Shown: positions 23,103 to 42,604 of the stretch, piece after piece | How positions within the stretch are numbered: the first letter of the stretch is position 1 | Layout of the letters: every line of letters starts with the position of its first letter | Assembly (NCBI GenBank): GCA_016213405.1 | Contig: JACRAM010000095.1 | Coordinates: 1 to 42,655 of the forward strand | Length of the DNA: 42,655 bases | Source of the DNA: Bacteroidota bacterium | Lineage (GTDB): Bacteria; Bacteroidota; Bacteroidia; Palsa-948 | Reading direction: 5' to 3' | The notes under the pieces: generated by a model | Seen by the model: only the letters and a program-made list of their open reading frames with translations | What the model was told of the DNA's origin: nothing | Databases searched by the model: none | Position numbers and translations under genes: made by a program

Positions 23103-26100
23103 ATGAATACCGAAACTCCATACCACCCGAAAAATAAAATCCGCATTGTTACTGCCGCTTCGCTGTTTGACGGTCACGATGCCGCCATCAACATCATGCG
23201 AAGGATTATGCAGAGCACAGGAGCTGAAGTGATTCACCTTGGGCACGACCGCGCGGTGGAAGAAGTGGTGGATTGCGCCATTCAGGAAGATGCGCACGCC
23301 ATTGCAATGACTTCGTATCAGGGCGGACATATTGAATATTTTAAATACATGTATGACTTGCTGAAGAAAAAGGGAGCGGAGCACATAAAAATTTTCGGAG
23401 GCGGAGGCGGAACAATTCTTCCAAGCGAAATTGAAGAATTGCAGAAGTACGGCATCACGCGCATTTATCATCCTGATGACGGACGCCATATGGGTTTGCA
23501 GGGAATGATTAACGATGTTTTGAAATCCTGCGACTATCCATTCGGAAATAATTTGAATGGAGAATTCACACCTATTTCGGTGAAGGATAAAAAAAACATT
23601 GCGCGATTAATTTCTGCTGCTGAAAATTTTCCTCATGAAAGCAAACCGATTCTTGCAAAAATAAAAAAGAAAAGCGCTGCCATCAATACTCCAGTTCTTG
23701 GAATCACCGGAACAGGTGGCGCTGGAAAATCCTCTCTCATAGATGAATTGGTGAGAAGATTTATTCTTGACTTTCCGGGCAAACATATCGGAATTGTTTC
23801 TATTGACCCATCGAAGAAAAAAACCGGTGGGGCATTATTGGGAGACAGAATCCGTATGAATGCCATCCTCAACGAACATGTTTACATGCGTTCGCTTGCC
23901 ACACGCCAAAGCAACATTGCCATCAGCAAGCACGCGGATGATGCTGTGAATATTCTCAAGGCAGCAGGATTCGATCTGATAATTGTAGAAACATCCGGCA
24001 TCGGGCAGAGCGATACGGAAATTACCGACCATGCGGATGTTTCGCTCTATGTTATGACTCCTGAATTTGGCGCTGCATCGCAGCTTGAAAAAATTGATAT
24101 GCTTGATTTTGCTGATGTGATTGCGATAAATAAATTTGATAAGCGCGGTGCAATGGATGCGCTTCGTGATGTGCGCAAGCAATACAAACGCAACAGAAAT
24201 ATTTTCAAGGTTGCTGACGAAAAACTTCCTGTGTTCGGAACCATCGCATCACAGTTCAACGACCCGGGAACAAATTCACTCTACAAATCTGTTATTGACA
24301 AGATTAATGAAAGGAAGGGTACAAAGTTTATATCAAAATTTGCTATCACAAAAGAAATGAGCGAGAAGATTTACATCATTCCTCCTTCACGCACACGCTA
24401 TCTCTCCGATATAACAGATAACAACCGCAAATACGATGAATGGGTAAGAACTCAGAGCGAGATTGCAGAAAAACTTTATGTGTTGCATCAGACAATTTTA
24501 TTGTTTGGCGGTCCGGATTTATTACATGGCTCTCCCCCTTTGAAAGGGGGAGGAGATTTTACAGGAAAATACTCGAAAGGATTAATGAATCATCCCGTTT
24601 TAAAAACTTTTCGCAAAGAAAAAAGAAATGCATTGACTCCAGCCGAAGCAAAACTCTGGACAATATTACAAGGCAGAAAGCTTAAAGGAAGAAAATTCAG
24701 AAGGCAGCATTCCATTGGACCATACATAGTTGATTTTTTCTGTCCGGAAGAACAATTAGCAATAGAGGTTGATGGAAACCATCATTATAATGCAGTTGGA
24801 GCGGATTACGATTATGAGCGAACAATATTTATTAATACTTATGGAATAAAAGTATTAAGATTTGAAAACAAAATGATTTTTGAGCAGACAAATTTTGTTA
24901 TTGAAGGAATTATACAAGCGTATGGATGGGAAAATACAACCACCCCTGCCCATCCTTTACAAGGAGGGGAGTTATTAAAAACTCTAACAAAAAAATTTAT
25001 TGTAACACTCGAAACTCTTGATCCTCATAACTGGAAACTTATTGAGGATTGGCAGAAGAAAATTAAAAAATATAAAGACGAAAACTACATTTTCAAAGTC
25101 CGCGACAAGGAAATTAAAATCAAAACTCATTCTGAAAGTTTATCACATACTCAGGTTCCGAAAGTTTCTCTTCCAAGATTCAAATCGTGGGGAGAAATTC
25201 TCAGATGGTCGCTTGCAGAAAATGTGCCCGGAGAATTTCCTTATGCAGCAGGAATTTACCCTTTCAAGCGCGAAGGCGAAGACCCTGCAAGAATGTTCGC
25301 TGGTGAAGGATGCCCTGAAAGAACCAATAAGCGCTTCCATTATGTTTCAAAAGGATTGCCAGCGAAAAGATTATCCACCGCGTTTGACAGCGTAACGCTC
25401 TATGGAAATGACCCTGATTATCGTCCGGACATCTATGGAAAAATCGGCAACAGCGGAGTTTCCATTTGCTGTCTGGATGATGCAAAAAAATTGTACAGCG
25501 GTTTCAATCTTGCCAACCCTAAAACTTCTGTGAGCATGACCATCAATGGTCCAGCTCCCATGATGCTCGGATTCTTCATGAATGCAGCTATTGACCAGCA
25601 ATGTGAAATATATATTAAACAAAATGGACTGGAAAAAGAAGTAAAAAAGAAGATTGAAAAATTCTACAAAGAAAAAAAATGCATTCGCCCGAAATACAAT
25701 GCACCCATGCCAGAAGGTAATGACGGGCTTGGTTTGATGCTGCTTGGAATTACCGGAGACAATATTCTTGAGAAAAATGTTTATGAAAAAATCAAAACCG
25801 AAACACTGAAGCAAGTTCGCGGAACGGTGCAGGCAGATATTTTAAAAGAAGATCAGGCGCAGAACACCTGTATTTTCTCTACGGAGTTCGCGCTGCGAAT
25901 GATGGGAGATGTGCAGGAATATTTTATCAATAACAAAGTAAGAAATTTTTATTCCGTTTCCATCAGCGGCTATCACATAGCAGAAGCAGGAGCGAATCCG
26001 ATTTCACAACTTGCCTTCACGCTGGCAAATGGTTTCACATTTGTGGAATATTATCTGAATCGCGGAATGAACATCAATGACTTCGGTCCGAATCTTTCTT

Positions 26101-26918
26101 TCTTTTTCTCGAACGGAATTGATCCAGAATATGCAGTAATAGGAAGGGTTGCGCGAAGAATCTGGGCAAAGGCGATGAAATATAAATACGGTGCGGATGA
26201 ACGTTCGCAGATGCTGAAATATCACATACAAACATCGGGCAGAAGTTTGCACGCGCAGGAAATTGATTTCAACGATATACGCACTACGCTGCAGGCGCTT
26301 TATGCAATTTACGACAACTGCAATTCACTTCACACGAATGCGTATGATGAAGCTATCACTACTCCGACAGAAGAAAGTGTGCGCAGGGCAATGGCGATTC
26401 AACTCATCATCAATAAAGAATTAGGACTGGCAAAGAATGAAAATCCACTGCAAGGTTCATTCATTATAGAAGAGATGACTGATCTGGTGGAAGATGCTGT
26501 GTGTGCAGAATTTGACAGAATCACCGAGCGCGGAGGAGTTTTGGGAGCAATGGAAACCATGTATCAGCGAAGTAAAATTCAAGAGGAGAGTTTGTATTAT
26601 GAAACATTGAAACACACAGGAGAATTTCCGATCATTGGAGTAAATACTTTTCTTTCGTCAAAAGGTTCACCCACCATTCTTCCAAAAGAAGTGATACGAG
26701 CAACAGAAGAAGAAAAGCAAGAGCAGATAAAAACGATTGAGAATCTTCATAGGAAATTTTCAAAAGAATCTGATGATGCGCTGAAGAAACTTCAACTGGC
26801 AGCTGTGCAGAACAAAAATATTTTTGCCGAACTGATGGTTGCTGCAAAATATTGTTCGCTCGGACAAATTACTAATTCATTATTTGAGGTTGGCGGGCAA
26901 TACAGAAGAAATATGTGA
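23103..26918 (+). CDS. icmF: Fused isobutyryl-CoA mutase (IcmF) with a DUF559 domain inserted in frame
   Basis: A 1271-residue coenzyme B12-dependent mutase. Residues ~14-140 form the cobalamin-binding domain ([12 protein letters not shown] with the base-off His; GGGGGTI). Residues ~150-450 are the MeaB/MeaI-like G-protein chaperone (Walker [11 protein letters not shown] near 200; NKFDKRG). The mutase barrel starts near 690 ([35 protein letters not shown]). IcmF interconverts isobutyryl- and n-butyryl-CoA, and the chaperone uses GTP to exchange damaged cofactor. Normal IcmF is ~1090-1140 residues. Here ~150 extra residues (about 465-625) separate chaperone and mutase and contain a DUF559 endonuclease domain flanked by palindromes, without loss of frame. 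Whether the enzyme still folds is unknown. A TGATG overlap couples it to the downstream cyclase gene. Confidence 0.92.
24532..24552. repeat. Palindrome at the left edge of the DUF559 insertion
   Basis: CTCCCCCTTT (24532-24541) and AAAGGGGGAG (24543-24552) are exact reverse complements around a single G. It lies ~30 bp before the DUF559 ATG and is translated as SPPLKGGG in icmF. Confidence 0.85.
24949..24968. repeat. Palindrome at the right edge of the DUF559 insertion
   Basis: TCCTT (24953-24957) pairs with AAGGA (24961-24965) around TAC. The stem is extended by CCC (24949-24951) with GGG (24966-24968) across one bulged A. It is preceded by CACCCCTG, a motif also seen as CCCCTG at the start of the tsaC insertion. 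Confidence 0.7.
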
Positions 26919-38619: not shown

Positions 38620-39091
38620 GAAGGTTAGAAAGCAGGAAAGACAAATACATAAATAAGAAAACAATTCAATGTACATGTCATGACTACATCACAAAAACCA
38701 CATAGGAGATTAATTTTATGGCAGAAAAGTATCGCCTTTTGTGTTTACGTTTATAAACTTTCAGAAAAATTCCCATCAACTGAAAAATACGGAATCACCT
38801 CTCAACTCAGGAGATGCGCAGTTTCAATTTCTCTTAATATTGCCGAAGGAGCAGGAAGAAATCACCAGAAAGAATTCATGCAATTTCTTGGAATTACCAA
38901 CGGCTCGATTGCAGAAGCAGACACCATCTGCGAACTGTTGTTACAACTTGAGTTCATCACGCAAAAAGAAAATGATACAATCATGGAAAAGATAAACGAA
39001 CTCTCAGCACTCAATAACGGGCTTCTTAAAAAGCTAAAATGTTTATGTACGTACTGAACTTTCTCACACTCTAACTCTCTCACCTTCTTAC
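38616..39091 (+). mobile_element. Candidate cassette: four-helix-bundle gene between GA-rich inverted repeats
   Basis: GTAAGAAGGT (38616-38625) and its exact complement ACCTTCTTAC (39082-39091) bracket the gene at 38680-39057, within longer GA/CT-rich tracts. The left copy overlaps the tsaC stop codon. The right tract (TCTCACCTTCTTAC) is 13/14 identical to the terminal repeat of the MITE-like hairpin at 40508-40605, suggesting a shared family. No transposase or target duplication is seen. Confidence 0.5.
38680..39057 (+). CDS. Four-helix-bundle protein (S23/IVS type, PF05635)
   Basis: A 125-residue all-helical protein matching the four-helix-bundle family first named from S23, encoded in intervening sequences of 23S rRNA genes: LILWQKSIAFCVYVYKLSEKFP, Y-GITSQLRRCAVSISLNIAEGAGR, FLGITNGSIAEADTICELL. 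Homologues form pentamers that bind nucleic acid; a relative (Avd) helps diversity-generating retroelements. Here it stands alone between tsaC and cca, bracketed by inverted repeats, as cargo of a small repeat cassette. Start is the ATG at 38680. Its role in this genome is unknown. Confidence 0.9.
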   Translation: MTTSQKPHRRLILWQKSIAFCVYVYKLSEKFPSTEKYGITSQLRRCAVSISLNIAEGAGRNHQKEFMQFLGITNGSIAEADTICELLLQLEFITQKENDTIMEKINELSALNNGLLKKLKCLCTY

Positions 39092-39096
39092 TACCT

Positions 39097-40503
39097 GTGA
39101 AAGATAAATTATCCCATCCCATCTTCAAAATTGTTTCCGACTGCGCATCGGAGATGAATGCGGATGCATATGTCTTTGGCGGCTGGGTGCGCGATTTATT
39201 ATTGAAGCGAGACTGCAAGGACATTGATTTTGTCTGCATCGGCAGCGGAATTGATCTGGCAGAGCGAGTGGCAAAAAAGCTGGGAGATAATTATCACGTA
39301 ACTATTTACAAGAACTTCGGCACAGCGCAGATTACTTATGAGGATTATGTAATAGAATTTGTAGGAGCAAGAAAAGAATCGTATGACAGAAACTCCCGTA
39401 AGCCCGTGGTGGAAGACGGCACTTTGGCAGATGACCAGAACAGGCGCGACTTCACCATCAATGCGCTGGCAATTTCTCTCGGCAAAAAAAATTACGGAGA
39501 ACTGCTGGACCCATTCGGGGGAATAAAAGACCTGAACTCGGGAATCATACGCACGCCATTGAATCCTGACATCACTTACTCCGATGACCCTTTGAGAATG
39601 ATGCGCGCCATCCGGTTTGCTTCACAGTTAGGATTCACCATTGAAAAAAAATCTTTCGAATCCATATCAAAGAACAAAGAGCGGATAAAAATAATTTCCA
39701 AAGAAAGAATTGCCGATGAGCTGAACAAAATAATTCTTTCGCCAAAACCATCAGTCGGATTCAAACTTCTGTTCGACACCGGATTGCTCAATCTGATATT
39801 TCCGCAGTTGGTTCTCCTGCAAGGCGTGGAATATGCCGATGGCAAAGGGCACAAGGATAATTTCTACCACACGCTGGAAGTGCTCGACAATATTTCAAAA
39901 AACACAAATGATCTATGGCTGAGATGGGCTGCCGTGCTGCACGACATTGCCAAGCCGCAGACAAAACGATTTGAAGAAGGGCACGGATGGACCTTTCACG
40001 GGCACGAAGACAGGGGCTCGCGCATGGTTCCTAAAATATTTGCCGAGTTAAAACTTCCGCTCAATGAAAAAATGAAGTACGTGCAGAAACTTGTTCTGCT
40101 TCACCTCCGCCCTATCGTACTCGCCAAGAATGAAGTCAGCGATTCAGCCGTGCGAAGATTATTGTTTGAAGCGGGCGATGACATTGACGACCTGATGATG
40201 CTTTGTGATGCCGACATCACTTCCAAAAATCCGGAGAAGGTGAAAAAGTATATGCGCAACTTTGAAATTGTGCGCGTGAAATTAAAAGAAGTGGAAGAAA
40301 AAGACAAGATGCGCAACTGGCAGCCACCCATCACAGGAGAAATTGTGATGAAAACTTTTAATCTACCTCCCTCAAAGACCATCGGCATCATCAAAGACGC
40401 GGTGCGCGAAGCCATTCTTGACGGAGTCATTCCCAACGAATATGAAAAAGCATTTGAATACATGATTCAGAAAGGCAAGGAACTGGGATTAGGGAGAAAG
40501 TGA
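39097..40503 (+). CDS. cca: CCA tRNA nucleotidyltransferase with HD domain
   Basis: A 468-residue class II CCA-adding enzyme (or poly(A)-polymerase-type relative). The nucleotidyltransferase core has GGWVRDLLL and DIDFV (the metal-binding D-x-D), then [13 protein letters not shown] and DPFGGIKDL. The neck follows ([25 protein letters not shown]), then a C-terminal HD domain ([23 protein letters not shown]). It repairs or completes the 3' CCA of tRNAs. Start is a GTG at 39097; no ATG fits better. It is followed immediately by a MITE-like hairpin and preceded by the GA-rich repeat, so it is bracketed by repeats on both sides. Length is normal for the family. Confidence 0.9.
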
Positions 40504-40507
40504 GGGA

Positions 40508-40605
40508 GTGAGAAGGTGAGAGTGTGAGAGCGTATTAACTTTTCCCGAAGGGACTCTCCGAAGGAGTCCTTCGGACCTTCGGAGCTAACTTTCTCACCTT
40601 CTCAC
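40508..40605. repeat. MITE-like 98-bp hairpin with 14-bp terminal inverted repeats
   Basis: GTGAGAAGGTGAGA (40508-40521) is the exact reverse complement of 40592-40605. Inside are nested palindromes: CCGAAGGAGTCCTTCGG (17 bp, odd centre) and GGACTC/GAGTCC. The sequence starts just after the cca stop (40501-40503). It shares its terminal repeat with the right side of the four-helix-bundle cassette. No coding capacity. Could also act as a transcript-end structure. Confidence 0.75.
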
Positions 40606-41335: not shown

Positions 41336-41500
41336 TTAATTGAGTTGACTTAGTTAATTGAGTTAATTAGGTTGATTGGGTTGATTGGGTTGATTAGGTT
41401 AATTAAGTTGATTGAGTAACAGCTATAATTAACCATTTAACTTAATCAACTAGTTAACCATTTAACCTAATCAACCCTTTAACTTATTTAACTTTTCCCG
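41336..41500. repeat. AT-rich word repeat forming a long imperfect hairpin
   Basis: The entire gap between the acidic-tail gene and miaA consists of variations of GTTGATT, GTTAATT and their complements. The best inverted pair is GGGTTGATTAGGTTAA (41387-41402) with its exact complement at 41462-41477. The left arm starts at the stop codon of the upstream gene. No gene or promoter consensus was found within it, though the miaA promoter must be here or further upstream. Confidence 0.7.
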
Positions 41501-41503
41501 CTA

Positions 41504-42604
41504 ATGCAATCCGAAAAAAAATTAATCGTTATCCTCGGACCCACCGCAGTTGGAAAAACCGCTCTTGCCATTGAAGTTGCCAAAGCGCTTGGCACAGAAA
41601 TTATTTCTGCCGACTCCCGCCAGTTCTTCCGCGAGATGAACATAGGCACCGCAAAACCTTCTGCCGAAGAACTCAAACAGGTAAAGCATCATTTCATAAA
41701 CTCCCTTTCCGTAACAGATGATTATAATGTGGGAATGTTTGAGCGCGATGCACTGCAGGTGCTTGAAAAAATATTAGCCCCACCCCATCCCTCCCCATTA
41801 GGGAGGGAGAAAGTAATACAAGTCCTCCCCCAATGGGGGAGGTCAGCTTGCCCCAATCGGAGCATCGGGGGAGGGGGCAAAGGATTCAGGAGGGGGCAGA
41901 GGATTCAGGAGGGGGTGGCTGTGATGGTTGGCGGTTCCGGCTTATACATTAATGCGGTGCTCAATGGTTTTGACCCGGTGCCGCAAGCCGACAAAGAACT
42001 GAGAGCAAACCTTACCGCATTATATAAAGAATACGGAATTGAAGAACTGCAGCAACAATTAAAAAGATTAGACCCCGAGCATTATCGTAAAGTGGATATT
42101 AAAAACCCCCACCGCCTCATTCGGGCGATAGAAGTTTGCCTGATAACAGGAAAACCGTATTCCGAATTCAGAAAGAAGGATTCCTCCCCTAATGGGGGAG
42201 GTCGGGCTGACGATTCTATCAGCCCTGACCGAAGCGTCAGGGAGGGGGCTTTGTTTACCCCAATAAAAATCGGACTTGAACTCGGGCGCGAAGAACTTTA
42301 TGCACGCATAAACGCGCGCGTTGATAAAATGATGAGCGATGGATTGGTTGAAGAAGTAAAAAAACTTAAAGCGCACCGCCACCGCAACTCGCTGCACACG
42401 GTGGGATACAAAGAAGTGTTTGATTTTTTTGAAGGCAAGCAAGACCTCTCCCGAACGGTAGAACTCATCAAGCAAAACACGCGCAACTATGCCAAACGGC
42501 AAATGACCTGGTTCAGAAAAGACAAAGAGATAAAATGGTTCTCTCCTCACGACAGCAAAGCGGTGATTGAGTTTGTGAAAAAGGAGTTAGAAAGCAAGAA
42601 GTAA
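41504..42604 (+). CDS. miaA: tRNA dimethylallyltransferase with two in-frame repeat insertions
   Basis: A 366-residue MiaA (usually ~300-315). Walker A GPTAVGKT (residues 10-17), DSRQFFREMNIGTAKP, HHFINSL, VMVGGSGLYI, NPHRLIRAIEV and the C-terminal QMTWFRKDKEIKWF are all intact. MiaA adds the isopentenyl group to A37 of tRNAs that read UNN codons. Two extra segments, ~46 residues between DALQVLEKIL and VAVMVGGSG, and ~25 residues between YSEFRKK and FTPIKIGLEL, are translations of GC-rich palindromes. Both fall in loops of the family and preserve the frame, so the enzyme may tolerate them. The stop lies within GA-rich repeat words like those after tsaC and cca. Confidence 0.9.
   Translation: MQSEKKLIVILGPTAVGKTALAIEVAKALGTEIISADSRQFFREMNIGTAKPSAEELKQVKHHFINSLSVTDDYNVGMFERDALQVLEKILAPPHPSPLGREKVIQVLPQWGRSACPNRSIGGGGKGFRRGQRIQEGVAVMVGGSGLYINAVLNGFDPVPQADKELRANLTALYKEYGIEELQQQLKRLDPEHYRKVDIKNPHRLIRAIEVCLITGKPYSEFRKKDSSPNGGGRADDSISPDRSVREGALFTPIKIGLELGREELYARINARVDKMMSDGLVEEVKKLKAHRHRNSLHTVGYKEVFDFFEGKQDLSRTVELIKQNTRNYAKRQMTWFRKDKEIKWFSPHDSKAVIEFVKKELESKK
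41777..41914 (+). repeat. In-frame palindromic insertion 1 in miaA
   Basis: 138 bp (46 codons). It contains CCCTCCC/GGGAGGG (41789-41795, 41801-41807), CCTCCCCC/GGGGGAGG (41824-41831, 41835-41842) and a 19-bp near-tandem unit (GAGGGGGCAAAGGATTCAG then GAGGGGGCAGAGGATTCAG). Translated as PHPSPLGREK...GGGGKGF. Length is a multiple of three and free of stops in frame. Confidence 0.8.
42178..42252 (+). repeat. In-frame palindromic insertion 2 in miaA
   Basis: About 75 bp. CTCCCC (42184-42189) pairs with GGGGAG; GGGCTGA (42204-42210) with TCAGCCC (42219-42225); CTGAC (42225-42229) with GTCAG (42236-42240). Its first 19 bases, CCTCCCCTAATGGGGGAGG, match insertion 1 (41824-41842) at all but one position, and both end in GGAGGGGGC. 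So the two are copies of one element with different inner hairpins. Confidence 0.8.

Follow-up and report, generated by a model that had tools for sequence, protein, structure and literature searches.

The tRNA dimethylallyltransferase gene (miaA) in the stretch of Bacteroidota DNA analysed here (42,655 nucleotides, hereafter the window) carries two in-frame palindromic inserts that belong to a family dispersed through the genome, and the ends of this family are shared with larger elements encoding a DUF559 nuclease. The reading we favor, with a probability of about 0.68, is that the family consists of non-autonomous palindromes resembling the Rickettsia palindromic elements (RPEs), that their autonomous partner encodes the DUF559 nuclease, and that this nuclease drives their spread.

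Two in-frame palindromic inserts in miaA

The product of miaA scores 254.7 bits against the NCBIfam model TIGR00174 (miaA; cut-off 148.65) and matches the Pfam IPPT profile (5.4e-76). A sequence-only reading of the window had proposed that the gene contains two extra in-frame segments of 138 and about 75 bp, each bounded by the same 19-mer, amid intact MiaA motifs. The segments proved real: neither is present in any of the 29 MiaA homologues aligned, a set that includes six from the same genus, and the alignment confirmed that the motifs on either side of both are undisturbed. Their borders had to be redrawn, to 41776-41916 (141 bp) and 42182-42250 (69 bp). The 19-mer is indeed present in both inserts (41824-41842 and 42183-42201; 0.01 matches expected by chance in the window at up to three mismatches); it does not bound the first, which starts at 41776 with the hairpin module AGCCCCACCCCATCCCTCCCCATTAGGGAGGGAG. 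The features are as follows.

41504..42604, + strand: miaA, tRNA dimethylallyltransferase (366 aa, a single ORF with both inserts inside)
41776..41916, + strand: insert 1, in-frame palindromic element AGCCCC...GGAGGGGGT (141 bp, missing in 29 homologues)
41776..41808, + strand: insert 1, left module, terminal repeat AGCCCCACCCCA and hairpin TCCCTCCCCATTAGGGAGGGA (recurs elsewhere)
41809..41822, + strand: insert 1, linker GAAAGTAATACAAG (kept in dispersed miniature copies)
41823..41842, + strand: insert 1, right hairpin TCCTCCCCCAATGGGGGAGG
41843..41878, + strand: insert 1, right tail, nested-hairpin variant ...CTTGCCCCAATCGGAGCATCGGGGGAGGGGGC (variant also in L012)
41879..41916, + strand: insert 1, right tail repeated twice more as 19-bp units, GGATTCAGGAGGGGG (L064 and L121 have a duplicated tail too)
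42182..42250, + strand: insert 2, in-frame half-element made of a hairpin, a nested hairpin and a GGGAGGGGGCT tail (69 bp, variant also in L065)

Insert 1 has the architecture of a two-module unit followed by a tandemly repeated tail. Its left module recurs at many other loci and also terminates DUF559 elements, while the linker that separates it from the right hairpin is identical in L063 and L064 and altered in L066, L261 and L265. Insert 2 corresponds to one hairpin module, with a nested hairpin unlike that of insert 1; both nested-hairpin variants were found again elsewhere in the same genome. Compared with the relatives, the net gain is 42 codons at insert 1 and about 19 at insert 2, and neither insertion is clean, some 4-5 target codons being replaced at each (about 5 at insert 1). 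Both lie in variable, loop-type stretches of the homologue alignment; against MiaA proteins of known structure, two matching segments enclose insert 1, and insert 2 coincides with a loop that is gapped or variable. As judged from DNA folding against shuffled sequences, insert 2 is unusually stable (z = -3.07); insert 1 is not unusual (z = -1.21). An Rfam search of the window gave no match.

The right tail is tandemly repeated two to three times at several loci (41879-41916 in the window, L064 and L121), which may bear on the copying mechanism. Other repeats lie nearby: AT-rich tandem, partly inverted repeats just upstream of miaA (41340-41492; TTAATTGAGTTGATT / TAATTAACCATTTAACTTAATCAAC), and two 31-nt inverted repeats of the CTCTCACCTTCTTACT type (39066-39096 and 40503-40533, 84% complementary) that bracket a gene resembling poly(A) polymerase/tRNA nucleotidyltransferase.

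Copies, hosts and empty sites

When the 3.65-Mb genome was searched with the 19-base core, as the sequence-only reading had advised, 51 places were found at up to three mismatches, and none with the reversed control. Right modules were present in seven same-genus genomes, one per species, in numbers ranging from 3 to 39 (39, 35, 20, 15, 5, 3 and 3; control 0). The earlier idea of an RPE-like repeat invading genes in Bacteroidota is borne out by these genome-wide copies, by their in-frame presence in unrelated genes and by empty sites; what it had overlooked is that hairpin modules form inverted pairs with terminal repeats of their own, and that the ends are common to DUF559 elements. Indeed, the full unit comprises two inverted hairpin modules with terminal inverted repeats AAGCCC...GGGCTT (for instance AAGCCCCACCCCAACCCTCCCCGTTAGGGAGGGAGAAAGTAATACAAGTCCTCCCCAATGGGGAGGATTTAGGAGGGGCTT, at L064), and single modules (half-units) are common. 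The family has the hallmarks of a MITE in that it combines terminal inverted repeats and multiple copies with the lack of any coding capacity of its own. Since copies in unrelated genes have the linker in common, the miniatures appear to spread as miniatures. Among 61 distinct right-module sequences, themselves selected by pattern, 14 broken changes were counted vs 6 double-sided ones (covariation), too mixed a result to argue for selection on the structure.

In a 438-kb sample made up of three large contigs and the window, 47 elements were called (a few of these calls being weak or from related palindrome families), 31 of them inside called gene ORFs, in frame and stop-free. About 90% of the sample is called coding, so genes contain fewer copies than random placement would give, which is what the loss of out-of-frame insertions would produce. 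The hosts recognizable by sequence include ThiL, pyruvate/biotin carboxylase, RecG, MeaB, a SerA-like dehydrogenase, MurI, MurD, MurE, Maf and UbiD.

Comparison of orthologues, also advised by the earlier reading, revealed empty sites in same-genus genomes of other species. The MeaB gene differs from that of G006 (96% identity over the protein segment) by exactly 78 bp, a clean insertion that reads GGT[AGCCCATCC...AGAGGGGGCA]TTT; at this site, the sole clean one examined, the borders show no target-site duplication (at most 1 bp shared). The MurE and UbiD sites are occupied only in the genome that holds the window among those compared, the UbiD half-element not being clean, as 21 nt are replaced. 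The RecG inserts are present in G000 and G005, and absent from G001 and G003.

Other palindromes came to light as well. Elsewhere in the same genome (C88:70577, 117389 and 15783; C125:107554), there are other palindrome families, with terminal repeats GACCTCACCCC/GGGGTGAGGTC or of the GTCCCCC type, and the Y1_Tnp (RAYT-like) genes at L025 (C57) and L027 (C29) have hairpins of their own, CCCCATGCTTCAGCATGGGG and CCACGACCTTTAGGTCGTGG, which make up a separate REP-like system. A pattern scan of genome contigs also gave matches in Sphingomonas and other Alphaproteobacteria. The exact left module AGCCCCACCCCAACCCTCCCC...GGGGAGGG was found in Sphingomonas and Sphingobium (L098, L099, L102, L106, L108, L109, L113, L116-L118 and L120), often beside a second palindrome (ACCCCGGCGAAGGCCGGGGC), with no DUF559 near these left modules; these repeats may be unrelated to the family.

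DUF559 nucleases and shared ends

The window itself holds a nuclease-bearing element, located in frame within icmF (24504-24980):

23103..26918, + strand: icmF, fused isobutyryl-CoA mutase/GTPase (1271 aa; NF045497 at 1752.9 bits, cut-off 1500)
24532..24552, + strand: left flanking hairpin of the element, CTCCCCCTTTGAAAGGGGGAG
24606..24917, + strand: DUF559 (PF04480) nuclease domain (E 4.5e-29; aa 503-605; catalytic-type residues intact)
24949..24969, + strand: right flanking hairpin of the element, CCCATCCTTTACAAGGAGGGG

Among the seven same-genus genomes, only G002 likewise has an in-frame DUF559 domain in icmF; the domain is missing in G001, G003, G004, G005 and G006. Its homologue in the PDB is 3hrl, an endonuclease-like protein (E 1.6e-23). 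Each of the seven DUF559 copies in the genome is flanked by palindromic modules, and three, those of recG, icmF and rluA, are in frame with the host gene; in RecG, the DUF559 domain lies between two element ends. DUF559 is present in 28/40 relatives, often in very long ORFs, and in 170/296 Bacteroidota genomes, many of the copies listed lying in ORFs of more than 300 aa. As identified by profile, the in-frame hosts include the housekeeping proteins LeuS, RecG, RecJ, MutS, AcsA, TsaD, TsaB and IcmF, and the insertion can interrupt a single Pfam domain, such as DHH or AMP-binding. A Pfam scan of ten host proteins detected no Hint splicing domain, DUF559 standing alone between the host domains.

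The association with hairpins was compared with controls: with a stem of at least 7 bp required within 160 nt on each side, 38 of the 60 DUF559 copies with full flanks had hairpins on both sides, vs 1/1051 and 4/2000 control pairs, while 22/60 lacked one on at least one side under this strict test. The residues E, Q, D, E, D, H and D are invariant in all 60 copies, including 29/29 in-frame ones, and the predicted nuclease fold, together with these catalytic-type residues, is that of a putative homing endonuclease (PD-(D/E)XK / EDxHD). In a DUF559 tree built on few columns, and hence uncertain in its inner forks, a well-supported clade groups 22 members, all in frame (in LeuS, RecG, RecJ, MutS, TsaB, TsaD, AcsA, RluA and SpoIIE-type proteins), with no free-standing member.

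Nuclease elements and miniatures have their ends in common. G004 has a DUF559 element within the gene of a SpoIIE-type phosphatase (L171) and a miniature in another ORF (L261); their right ends, GTCCTCCCCATTGGGGAGGATTTAGGAGGGGCTT, are identical and their left ends nearly so, both junctions reading ...VLPIGEDLGGAS. At the MutS site, a DUF559 element is found in G003 and G005, the genome that holds the window has a 132-bp stretch that shares these ends (AGCCCATCC...GAAGGATTTAGGATGGGCTG) but is devoid of nuclease, and the other species have no insert. This site and the L171/L261 pair thus provide the larger relative with the same ends that is typical of a MITE. A blind search pointed in the same direction: the right-end motif GRAGGATTTAGGWKGGGC, derived from miniatures, was found across 296 genomes in six Bacteroidota genomes besides the one it came from, at 11-12 places, three of which lie 36, 36 and 69 nt behind DUF559 in ORFs of 1100-1402 aa. 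In the pattern scan mentioned above, DUF559 was near the module at one of 33 loci, in Prevotellaceae (L100), where the exact left module lies 98 nt upstream of the domain. Most miniatures fall into stem subfamilies that lack an observed nuclease copy in the genome that holds the window.

Same-site states were also informative. Within one genus, AcsA is found with a DUF559 element, with short scars or with the site empty. In SpoIIE-type hosts, nuclease identity is 80% between G004 and G029 vs 51-62% for the host flanks, and 75.5% between G013 and G006 vs 35-44%; because the nucleases are more alike than the host flanks, the element has passed from one lineage to another at this position. From sequence comparison, the RecJ copies look vertically inherited and the LeuS copies look like separate arrivals; at the LeuS site, the nucleases resemble one another less than the hosts do, so homing is not reflected by every shared site. 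The tsaB gene contains a DUF559 element in G002 and G003, and short in-frame tandem repeats in the other four same-genus genomes, G001, G005, G006 and G004 (L235, L236, L241 and L248), the repeats differing in sequence (GTCAAAA units, for example).

Candidate drivers and relation to known systems

The proposal that the nuclease drives the spread has to be weighed against one in which RPE-like palindromes are moved by some other mobilizer and the DUF559 genes are passengers that landed in palindromes. The numbers lend it some weight, as miniatures are far commoner than nucleases in the genome that holds the window (39 right modules at up to three mismatches vs 7 DUF559 copies) and the flanks of DUF559 elements comprise several unrelated palindrome families. 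We nevertheless regard it as improbable, because the nuclease sits between the two halves in a conserved frame with its catalytic-type residues kept in every in-frame copy, because the clade of 22 contains in-frame copies only, and because nuclease-bearing and nuclease-less copies have the same ends at one MutS site.

A somewhat less plausible alternative is that a Y1 (HUH) RAYT transposase mobilizes the family as REP/REPIN-type elements, DUF559 being incidental. Inverted pairs of hairpin modules do resemble REPINs, the genome has eight Y1_Tnp matches, several of them flanked by hairpins (on both sides for three of the seven tested), and the MeaB insertion, devoid of target duplication, fits a RAYT-type process. 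However, the hairpins at the Y1_Tnp genes (CCCCATGCTTCAGCATGGGG and CCACGACCTTTAGGTCGTGG) are unrelated in sequence to the family, and AAGCCC/GGGCTT ends, which DUF559 copies do carry, were not seen immediately beside any Y1_Tnp gene. A REP/REPIN system would be expected to include a RAYT gene bordered by its own palindrome; none was found, the Y1_Tnp loci of this genome having other hairpins or none, and a RAYT driver is disfavored for that reason. As for immobile lineage-specific loops or intrinsic terminators that are palindromic by chance, the variable stretches in which the miaA inserts lie and the ease with which GC-rich hairpins arise in low-complexity DNA would suit them, but this reading is refuted by the nearly identical units that recur within dozens of unrelated genes and between genes (none with reversed-pattern controls), and empty sites in same-genus genomes speak against it.

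If the DUF559 nuclease is the driver, the miaA inserts would be non-autonomous copies of short palindromic mobile elements, whose DNA, being open in more than one frame, would allow insertions in loops to be retained as extra peptides rich in Pro and Gly. The autonomous form would have the same ends with DUF559, a Vsr-like domain of the PD-(D/E)XK fold, between them in one reading frame; as this form has no splicing domain, the nuclease would be produced as part of the host protein. We infer that the nuclease cuts a target gene, either at its own empty site or at a new one, and that repair copies in the element or, in trans, a miniature with matching ends, the hairpin ends possibly acting as recognition or annealing features. 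Selection would retain only in-frame, tolerated insertions, and loss of the nuclease part would yield miniatures and then scars.

The Rickettsia RPEs are short (about 150 bp), palindromic and multi-copy, and occur as translated, in-frame insertions in unrelated genes; in 2024, a review deemed their frequent in-frame insertion unusual and only conceivable elsewhere (PMC10969869). The present family is likewise found in frame in protein-coding genes and absent from orthologues, a likeness of behavior for which we claim no membership by sequence. It differs from RPEs by its phylum, its inverted hairpin pairs, its AAGCCC/GGGCTT ends and its nuclease-bearing partner. To our knowledge, no RPE has such a partner, and we know of no driver for the Rickettsia RPEs. 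The family resembles MITEs by its terminal inverted repeats, its lack of a gene and its larger relative with the same ends, but the partner encodes a PD-(D/E)XK nuclease instead of a transposase and itself sits in frame, and no target-site duplication was seen at MeaB, the one clean site. Like REPs and REPINs, its hairpin modules occur alone or in inverted pairs; by contrast, RAYT-like genes here are accompanied by other hairpins, and in-frame sites within genes are common, whereas REPs are largely extragenic.

A genome paper (PMC9403480) places DUF559 in the EDxHD family, and another article (PMC12907096) terms it Vsr-like. Same-site occupancy and horizontal spread are reminiscent of Vsr-like EDxHD homing endonucleases and of nucleases encoded in inteins, from which the elements differ by the lack of an intein and by their additional palindromic ends and miniatures. 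The few open-access papers naming DUF559 deal, in the passages concerned, neither with palindromes nor with in-frame gene invasion, and the parts of the open-access literature covered provided no description of a DUF559-partnered palindromic system. We therefore put forward, tentatively and with slightly less than even confidence, that these elements form a novel class: an open-ended coding cassette with palindromic ends and DUF559 but no splicing domain, which is read within the host protein and spreads through Bacteroidota by in-frame insertion at loops of essential proteins, along with many non-autonomous miniatures that become protein segments.

The family constitutes a system comparable to RPEs in a second phylum, with a nuclease partner that has the same ends and reaches the essential proteins LeuS, MutS and RecG, and this shared-end partner makes the question of the driver directly testable. 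It also offers a natural set of domain-insertion sites that essential proteins tolerate, and accounts for the unusual insertions rich in Pro and Gly, and for the DUF559 fusions, met with in annotated Bacteroidota proteins.
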